Shown here one piece after another: positions 30,468 to 33,035 of a stretch of DNA of 64,000 nt (within the stretch, counting starts at the first letter, position 1; each line of letters begins with the position of its first letter). The position numbers and the translations under genes are program-made. The notes beneath the pieces were generated by a model. The model made no database searches and had not been told where the DNA came from. It was given only the letters and a program-made list of their open reading frames with translations. Source of the DNA: Thermotoga sp. SG1 (GTDB lineage Bacteria > Thermotogota > Thermotogae > Thermotogales > Thermotogaceae); the NCBI RefSeq assembly GCF_002865985.1, contig NZ_LNDD01000003.1, positions 62,001-126,000 of the forward strand, written 5' to 3'.

Positions 30468-31382
30468 ATGGTGCGCTACAGAAAACTCAGCGATCACCTG
30501 AAGGAAAAATACGGTGAGAGAGTTCAGAGGATAGTCATCTTCGGAGGTTTCTCCTGTCCCAACAGGGACGGGACGAAGGGAACAGGAGGGTGTATCTACT
30601 GTGATGCCACAGGGAGCGGTTTCACCACGCTCATGAAACTACCCATCAGAGAACAGGTAATCAGAATGAAGGAAAGGTACGAAAAGAGGGGAATCAGAAA
30701 GTTCATCGCTTACTTTCAGGCGTTCAGCAACACGTATGCTCCCATCGAAGAACTCAGAAAAAGGTACGAAGAAGCCCTGGTAGACGATAGCGTAGTTCAA
30801 CTCTCCGTTTCCACAAGACCCGATCTTGTTCCCGAAGAAGTGCTGGATCTTCTGGAAGAGTTCAAAAAAAGAGTAGACGTTTCTGTTGAACTGGGCCTTC
30901 AGACGGCAAATTACAGGACTTTGAAAAAGATCAACAGGGGACACACGCTTGCAGAGTTCGTGGATGCTGCTGTCAGGGTGAAGAGAAGGGGAATAGAACT
31001 TGTGGTTCACGTGATACTGAATCTGCCGTGGGACGATATGGAAGATGTGGTGGAGACAGCAAAACTTCTCTCAGCCCTCGATGTGGACGGTGTGAAGCTT
31101 CATTCGCTGTACGTGGTGGAGGGAACAAAACTTGCGGAGCTGTACAGAAGAGGGGAGATAAAGATCTGTAGCCTGGAAGAGTACGTGGAGAGGGTCATCA
31201 CATTCCTAGAGTATTTGTCTCCCAAGGTCGTCATTCACAGACTCGTTGCTGACCCGCCAAAAGAGGGAACGATATTTGGAAACTGGGGAAAGAGCAAAAT
31301 AGAGATCATCAACATGATAGAAAGAGAACTCGAAAGGAGAGATACGTATCAGGGCAAAAGGTTCGATTATCTTAACAAGTAG
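30468..31382 (+). CDS. Radical SAM protein, YhcC/TIGR01212 family
   Basis: 304 residues. The Fe-S cysteines are C30, C42 and C45 in CPNRDGTKGTGGCIYC, a C-x11-C-x2-C spacing characteristic of this family instead of Cx3Cx2C. Further radical-SAM features (STRPDLVPEEVLDLL, VSVELGLQTANYRTL, HVILNLPWD) follow. Function in the cell is not established. ATG 30468 has GGAGGG just upstream. First gene of a four-gene operon. Confidence 0.9.
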   Translation: MVRYRKLSDHLKEKYGERVQRIVIFGGFSCPNRDGTKGTGGCIYCDATGSGFTTLMKLPIREQVIRMKERYEKRGIRKFIAYFQAFSNTYAPIEELRKRYEEALVDDSVVQLSVSTRPDLVPEEVLDLLEEFKKRVDVSVELGLQTANYRTLKKINRGHTLAEFVDAAVRVKRRGIELVVHVILNLPWDDMEDVVETAKLLSALDVDGVKLHSLYVVEGTKLAELYRRGEIKICSLEEYVERVITFLEYLSPKVVIHRLVADPPKEGTIFGNWGKSKIEIINMIERELERRDTYQGKRFDYLNK

Positions 31383-32424
31383 TCTGTTTCTTCTGCTTTT
31401 CAGCTGCGTTTTTGTCCCCAGGTATACACTCTCTTTCCTCGTATGGATGGCCGCGGATAACGACCTGGAACACTACGTGGCCCAGGACCTCGAAGAGATG
31501 AGAGAAAACCCATCGTGGATAGAAGTTTTTGTGATGGTCGATTATGAGACCAATTCGGATACCTTGTATCGTGTGGAAAGTGAGACAGTACCTCTGGAAA
31601 CCTTCGATGAGATAGATTCCGGTGATCCACAGACTCTTTCTTCCTTTCTGAATGAATACCGAAGGGATGATCTTTCTTTCCTTGTGATCTGGAATCACGG
31701 TGACTGGTGGCGTGGTGAGGCTCAGACGACAACGAAGGGAGTTGCCTACGATGAAACGAACGAAGATTTTCTTTCGGTGAAAGAGATAAAGAGCGTTTTA
31801 AAAGACTCTCCTGTCACGGTACTTGGTTTCGATGCTTGCTTGATGGGAACTTTCGAGATCTTGTGGGAACTGAAAGAATGTGCAAGATACATCGTGACTT
31901 CTTCTAAGGAAATTCCGGCGGAAGGCTGGGATTACACGGCGCTGAAGGAATCAACAGGTCTTTTCTCCCTTCTTTCCAGAATCGTTCAAAAGTACCATGA
32001 AAGTTACGGAGAGAGTGTTTCTTTGAGTGTCTGGGATACCTTGAAACTGGATGATGTCATGTACTGGCTGAACAGGGTTTCCCAGTACATGATGAAAAAG
32101 CAAATATCGCCCTGGAATTTCACTGTTGAAAGAAGAAAGATAGGAGGTTTTTCCACTGAACTCATAGAACTGGGAAGATTTGCAAGAGCGCTTTCTATGT
32201 CTTCGTCTTCAGACAATACTCTTAGATATTATGGTGAAAAACTTTACGATGCCATCGTTTCTGCCAGAATCTACGGCACTCCGAAAGACAACACGGATCT
32301 TCTCCTGTACCTGCCAGAGAACATGAAAAATTCCGAGTACTGGGATGACTTTTTCGCACTGAGTGACTTCACAAAAGATAGCTTCTGGGACGATCTTCTT
32401 CTTTATTGGAGGGATAAAAATTGA
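31342..32424 (+). CDS. Clostripain-family (C11) cysteine peptidase, probable lipoprotein
   Basis: C11 peptidase with catalytic His in WNHGDWW and Cys in FDACLMG (H84 and C131 counted from ATG 31447). The family's first strand (TLSFLVWMAADNDLE) and a lipoprotein signal (basic RIRAK, hydrophobic stretch, lipobox LFSC with Cys at 31405) lie in frame upstream of that ATG. No ATG, GTG or TTG exists there; ATA 31342, two bases after AAAGGAG, gives the best signal peptide, with ATT 31366 another option. The conservative start is ATG 31447. Likely a cell-surface peptidase. Confidence 0.75.
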   Translation: MRIRAKGSIILTSSLFLLLFSCVFVPRYTLSFLVWMAADNDLEHYVAQDLEEMRENPSWIEVFVMVDYETNSDTLYRVESETVPLETFDEIDSGDPQTLSSFLNEYRRDDLSFLVIWNHGDWWRGEAQTTTKGVAYDETNEDFLSVKEIKSVLKDSPVTVLGFDACLMGTFEILWELKECARYIVTSSKEIPAEGWDYTALKESTGLFSLLSRIVQKYHESYGESVSLSVWDTLKLDDVMYWLNRVSQYMMKKQISPWNFTVERRKIGGFSTELIELGRFARALSMSSSSDNTLRYYGEKLYDAIVSARIYGTPKDNTDLLLYLPENMKNSEYWDDFFALSDFTKDSFWDDLLLYWRDKN

Positions 32425-33035
32425 GAAGAGTGAACATGAATCTTGTCTGGATCGGTGTGATCTTTTCGATTGCGAGTACCTTTTTGCTGGTAAAATATTA
32501 CGGGGAAATCCTTTCTGGAAAGCAGGGACACGTCTTTGCTCTCGCGGCACTTTTTCTCTCGATAGTTTCTTCTCTTTCTCTTTTTGTTGTCTACAGGCAG
32601 TGGGCGATTTTGCTGAACGAGAACACTTTGAACACCAAAAAATTGGCAGAAAGTTACGGCATTGATTTGAAAGGAATTCCGCTTGTTCCGAACTGGACGT
32701 ATTTTGCCTTCGTTCTCTTCTGGTTTCTTTCCTTTCTTTTTCCGGAGGTGTGGCTGTTTTCGCTTCTTCAGGTGGTGTTCTTTGTGACCTTTTTGCATTT
32801 TCTTTTCGAAGCAGCAAGGCACCTTCAGGAGGAAAAAGCACGTCTTTACCGCACACTGTTTGATGTGGAGTTCCGGCCTATCATAAAGGAAAGAAACGTC
32901 CTATCTGTTCTCTTGCTCACTTTGATCACACTTGGTGTGTACTGGCTGTATCTGATCGTTGAACTTTCAAAGGAAATCAACGAATTTCTTGATGCCGACG
33001 AGAGAACCATGAAGAATCTGGAGGTGAAACTGTGA
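32421..33035 (+). CDS. Integral membrane protein, DUF4234-like
   Basis: 204 residues with about five hydrophobic segments. The last part ([27 protein letters not shown]) resembles the DUF4234 motif. TTG 32421 overlaps the upstream stop and has GGAGGG seven bases before it. Function unknown. Confidence 0.7.

Follow-up and report, generated by a model that had tools for sequence, protein, structure and literature searches.

A peptidase gene without an ordinary start codon

How is a lipoprotein translated when its reading frame offers no ordinary initiation codon? The question is raised by a forward-strand frame (31321–32424) in the window, the whole 64,000-nucleotide stretch of Thermotoga sp. 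SG1 DNA that was analysed. The frame encodes a clostripain-family (C11) lipoprotein, follows a TAG stop codon at 31318 and stays open through to the TGA at 32422–32424. Translating it confirmed what the initial annotation had described: no ATG, GTG or TTG occurs in frame between the stop codon and ATG 31447. The residues that follow the TAG, K E N S K G E I R I R A K G S I I L T S S L F L L L F S C, include both the hydrophobic stretch and the lipobox Cys (31405–31407) reported to lie upstream of that ATG. The first strand of the peptidase had also been placed there; the match to the Pfam family Peptidase_C11 (PF03415) begins before Met 31447, and therefore the preceding strand belongs to the fold.

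The missing codon is not peculiar to the window. Comparison of the start regions showed that an ATG, GTG or TTG shared at the conserved N-terminus is absent in all eight related genomes that carry the gene at this locus (the window's own included; G001, G003 and G004 are mutually close relatives), so that the lack of a shared canonical start extends over several species. Where residues of the upstream gene are shared, codon identity among these genomes falls as low as 0.42. A screen for residues conserved with G002 ahead of the first canonical start flagged 38 of 67 frames, the C11 frame among them; G002 is too close a relative for this screen, and gene overlaps conserve out-of-frame stretches.

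The C11 gene and its occurrence

The coding sequence and its predicted catalytic residues are:

31348–32424, forward strand: C11 (clostripain-family) peptidase lipoprotein gene, 358 codons plus stop; PF03415, 2.4e-86; C11 relatives in the PDB
31696–31698, forward strand: predicted catalytic His of the HG motif; six of six intact orthologues; aligned with HG of 6mzo
31837–31839, forward strand: predicted catalytic Cys of the DAC motif; six of six intact orthologues; aligned with DAC of 6mzo

The Pfam match covers positions 1–359 of the 359-position profile and scores 291 bits against a cut-off of 25.8. Its relatives of known structure are C11 proteins, 6mzo being the best (3.2e-14), and the HG His and DAC Cys are presumably the catalytic residues, as in family C11. 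The product resembles PmC11 and clostripain (both PF03415) in its full-length family match and in both motifs. It differs from clostripain in scoring far under the cut-off of the equivalog profile TIGR02806 (37.6 bits, 550 required) and in adding a lipoprotein leader; judged by these scores, it is a C11 relative and not a clostripain equivalog.

Every one of the seven genus genomes has a C11 match, as do 13 of the 14 genomes in the family, many of these being a longer paralogue. The C11 gene stands behind an mnmL-type gene in the seven genus genomes and in G010, which belongs to another genus. The C11 gene there is intact in six (the window, G001, G002, G005, G006 and G010). In G003 it is broken into two overlapping pieces in different frames, and in G004 into fragments (loci L006, L008, L014 and L018); it is therefore dispensable in some close relatives. 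Among the six intact genes, dN/dS was 0.083–0.177 in the 7 of 15 pairs with measurable dS, the other 8 being saturated so that dS was not computable; the first 12 paired codons were omitted. The C11 frame is thus truly coding and under purifying selection.

A conserved AUC codon behind a Shine–Dalgarno sequence

Inspection of the start region points to an ATC at 31348, a codon absent from the candidates first listed. It follows a Shine–Dalgarno (SD) sequence and would open a lipoprotein leader:

31333–31339, forward strand: SD sequence AAAGGAG, inside the upstream coding sequence; AGGAG in 8 of 8 loci with the C11 gene downstream and 0 of 22 without
31348–31350, forward strand: proposed start ATC (AUC), 8 nt after GGAG; conserved in 8 of 8
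31348–31404, forward strand: predicted lipoprotein signal peptide of 19 residues, MRAKGSIILTSSLFLLLFS; six intact orthologues, by eye
31405–31407, forward strand: lipobox Cys, the expected lipid-modified N-terminus of the mature protein; 6 of 6 intact orthologues

AGGAG precedes the ATC by 8 nt in every one of the eight genomes, and the aligned spacing, counted in the register of GGAGG, is 7, the modal value among the window's genes; an AUH codon is thus conserved behind an SD at ordinary distance. Spacings of 7–9 occur in 35 of the 45 window frames with a strong SD, frames whose starts were picked by SD so that the spacing alone is informative. The window contains 2807 ATC triplets, counting both strands, and 5 of them stand behind an SD run of at least 7 at a spacing of 5–9; the frames opened by the other four extend for 6, 11, 18 and 25 codons, that of the C11 gene for 358. 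Across the order, 45 genomes were searched for the upstream gene and 30 of its loci were compared: AGGAG with the ATC behind it is found at all eight loci that continue into a C11 gene and at none of the 22 that do not, and the ATC alone occupies the same place in 9 of those 22. Strong SDs, with the lowest energy 4–6 nt ahead of the start, are reported for T. maritima (PMC3636130), and an SD of this type may help a weak start codon. When the RNA around the start was folded for three genomes, its structure was no stronger than that of shuffled sequence (z −0.23 to −0.31), and therefore a hairpin-controlled start is not supported.

Read from the ATC, all six intact orthologues begin with M-[RK]-[AG]-[RK] (MRAKGS, MKAKGS, MKGRSS, MRARSL, MKAKSL and MRAKSL), followed by a hydrophobic stretch and Cys, with the lipoboxes LFSC, LSGC, LFSC, IFGC, LFGC and VSAC. 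By eye, all six therefore display the basic n-region, hydrophobic stretch and lipobox Cys of a bacterial lipoprotein. The Phe at −2 of LFSC is unusual; LSGC in G002 and VSAC in G010 are ordinary.

Synonymous constraint in the upstream gene

The proposed start signal is embedded in another coding sequence:

30468–31382, forward strand: upstream gene, tRNA-modification radical SAM protein of the MnmL/YtqA family; TIGR01212, 6.6e-133; open reading frame

This gene ends at TAG 31380–31382. The overlap with the C11 gene takes in its final 35 nt. The SD and the ATC lie within its final 17 codons, and both fall in codons of a conserved motif of the upstream protein, ERRxTYQGK. Codon choice within this motif is restricted at the two sites that matter. 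Arg290 is encoded by AGG in all eight genomes, the sole single-codon column among 14 invariant Arg columns. Tyr294 is TAT in all eight, whereas the ten invariant Tyr columns that lie beyond the overlap use TAT for 8 of their 80 codons; a TAC at this position would turn the ATC into ACC. G010 has 15 Tyr codons in this gene, and Tyr294 alone is TAT. Synonymous variation does occur between and after the two sites, in the Thr/Ser, Gln, Gly and Lys codons.

A two-state model on the gene tree, with its parameters taken from the remaining columns, gives a probability of 1.6e-6 that all eight codons are TAT and of 0.014 that all are AGG. A simple count yields a less striking picture: 28 of 212 invariant columns use a single codon in all eight genomes, and in 5 of these, Tyr294 included, it is a minority codon (<0.30). 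Because 5 of the 212 columns share this pattern, Tyr294 by itself would not convince; the argument from codon choice draws its weight from two such sites coinciding exactly with the SD and the start of the predicted signal.

Alternative accounts of initiation

The initial annotation offered either a rare start codon or a start lost or misread in this sequence, and considered ATA 31342 the best candidate. A rare start codon as such is well supported, given the conserved SD and ATC, while the codons named for it are not; the related genomes bear out the lack of a shared canonical start but do not all have the ATA. That codon does lie 2 nt past the SD; rare AUA starts are known from S. aureus infC and ccpN (PMC13009471), and initiation there would add basic residues to the leader. 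However, it is ATA in six genomes, ACT in G005 and ACA in G010, which refutes it as a shared start, and it stands too close to the SD, its aligned spacing being 1 against the prevailing 7–9, leaving it extremely improbable. ATT 31366 and CTG 31384, suggested as further options, lack a suitably spaced SD and are not shared by all eight genomes. The frame's first ATG (31447–31449, forward strand) also failed as a candidate: it encodes Met in two of eight genomes (the window and G006), is replaced elsewhere by ATA, ATC or TTT, and has no SD. Loss or misreading of an ordinary start in the window can hardly be credited: no canonical start is common to the eight genomes, which do share the conserved SD and ATC, and six intact frames are under purifying selection. 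What speaks for it is that the C11 gene is decaying in G003 and G004; otherwise it has just the missing codon itself.

The alternative that we take most seriously, unlikely as it is, places the start five codons past the ATC, at the position of TCG 31363, where five of the eight genomes (G001, G003, G004, G005 and G010) have TTG; the window, G002 and G006 would then use another weak codon. With the TTG as start, the hydrophobic leader would be short and still run to the Cys of the lipobox. The TTG lies 23 nt from the SD, however, three of the eight genomes have TCG in its place, the upstream Phe codon at this site varies between TTT and TTC, and in G001, G003, G004 and G005 the resulting leader would have no basic residue ahead of its hydrophobic stretch. 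Initiation might also have no fixed site, with ribosomes restarting at CTG 31384 or nearby after the upstream TAG 31380, or slipping into the C11 frame. The genes do overlap, and the window, G002 and G006 have a CTG 1 nt past the upstream stop (TTG in G005), but the codon is CTT in G001, G003 and G004, and the CTG-started leader, MFLLLFSC, would contain no basic residue. Inspection by eye revealed no conserved slippery site, and neither restart nor slippage accounts for the conserved AGGAG and TAT, so we consider this very unlikely. Frameshifting from the upstream gene was rejected in its own right: inspection by eye near its stop found no slippery site common to the genomes, and it would make little sense for a lipoprotein signal to follow an enzyme of 300 residues.

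Precedents for an AUH start

The classical gene with an AUH start (AUU, AUC or AUA) is infC, which encodes IF3 and is autoregulated by IF3; the Myxococcus IF3 (Dsg) reportedly starts with AUC. In the order to which Thermotoga belongs, infC has an ATH behind an SD at ordinary distance at all 28 readable loci (25 ATC, 3 ATA), out of 30 loci fetched from 44 matches, the loci of G042 and G014 being left out as cut. In the window's family it is ATC after an SD in 14 of 14 genomes. Some infC frames have a GTG or ATG four codons further on, and it is conservation that suggests the AUH start here. The layout within the genus (for example L057) is GGAGG, 8 nt, ATC, nearly that of the C11 gene. The likeness lies in this arrangement of SD, 8 nt and AUC; infC encodes a translation factor and the C11 gene a lipoprotein peptidase, and any control of the latter by IF3 would therefore be of a kind other than feedback.

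Discrimination by IF3 has been established for the AUU of E. coli infC (PMC1780047, PMC13009471). Outside infC, E. coli pcnB has an AUU start that keeps its expression low (Binns and Masters 2002, cited in PMC1780047 and PMC13009471). This gene is like the C11 gene in having a non-canonical AUH start, which in pcnB lowers the yield; it differs in that its codon is AUU and was shown by experiment, whereas the AUC of the C11 gene is predicted from sequence. In S. aureus, ccpN (AUA) and cvfC1 (AUU) give about 10% of the AUG yield in reporters (PMC13009471), and share with the C11 gene a conserved non-canonical AUH start and a strong SD. They belong to another phylum and encode a regulator and a small protein, and, to judge by that source, they are not nested in an upstream gene. 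The C11 gene stands apart from pcnB, ccpN and cvfC1 in its AUC codon, its position inside the upstream gene and its lipoprotein peptidase product. In the titles and abstract openings of the open-licence papers searched we found no description of an AUC start for the Thermotoga C11 gene or infC.

A model for translation of the C11 gene

The eight genomes share no canonical start, the SD and ATC are conserved, the upstream codons that hold them are synonymously constrained, the C11 frame is under purifying selection, and infC provides a precedent. In the model that we propose, and regard as likely correct, the C11 lipoprotein is translated from the conserved AUC at 31348, a codon probably discriminated against by IF3, and the amount of a surface protease would thereby be limited. 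The SD AAAGGAG, within the last codons of the mnmL-type gene, would select AUC 31348, where we infer that ribosomes initiate. The initiator Met-tRNA would pair with the AU and mismatch at the C, and IF3 should proof-read against such a codon. By analogy with infC, little C11 protein would be expected, and more when IF3 is scarce. In the product, a short n-region with basic residues would precede a hydrophobic stretch and a Cys bearing lipid, making it a membrane-anchored peptidase with a predicted His/Cys active site. The missing ordinary start thus reflects real biology and probably keeps the protein scarce or tunable.

More tentatively, Thermotoga and a sister genus could be keeping a second AUC-start gene besides infC, encoding a surface lipoprotein protease under IF3 proof-reading, with a start signal that lies wholly in synonymous codons of the upstream gene; it might be one of a small IF3-tuned set that gene finders working with ATG, GTG and TTG have missed. 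Conserved AUH starts outside infC are few, and the examples compared here are AUU or AUA where the C11 gene has AUC, a start old enough to span two genera. Gene callers limited to ATG, GTG and TTG would trim the signal peptide and mislabel the lipoprotein as soluble. The proposed start signal lends itself to a clean test, as one synonymous mutation in the upstream gene would abolish the C11 start codon and leave the upstream protein unaltered.

Neighbouring and related genes

The C11 product is 78% identical to that of G002, compared with more than 90% for most proteins of the window, and its gene is among the fastest-evolving of the window relative to G002. The gene that follows (32421–33035) overlaps the C11 stop codon and encodes a membrane protein, judged by eye, with a DUF4234 match (3.5e-07). 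A scan of genome contigs returned just one distant relative, at 28% identity. The genome of the window carries a second, longer C11 lipoprotein (L012, G000:C3:229676-230722) in a 474-codon frame, the leader of which has canonical start codons and an ordinary lipobox, SGC.
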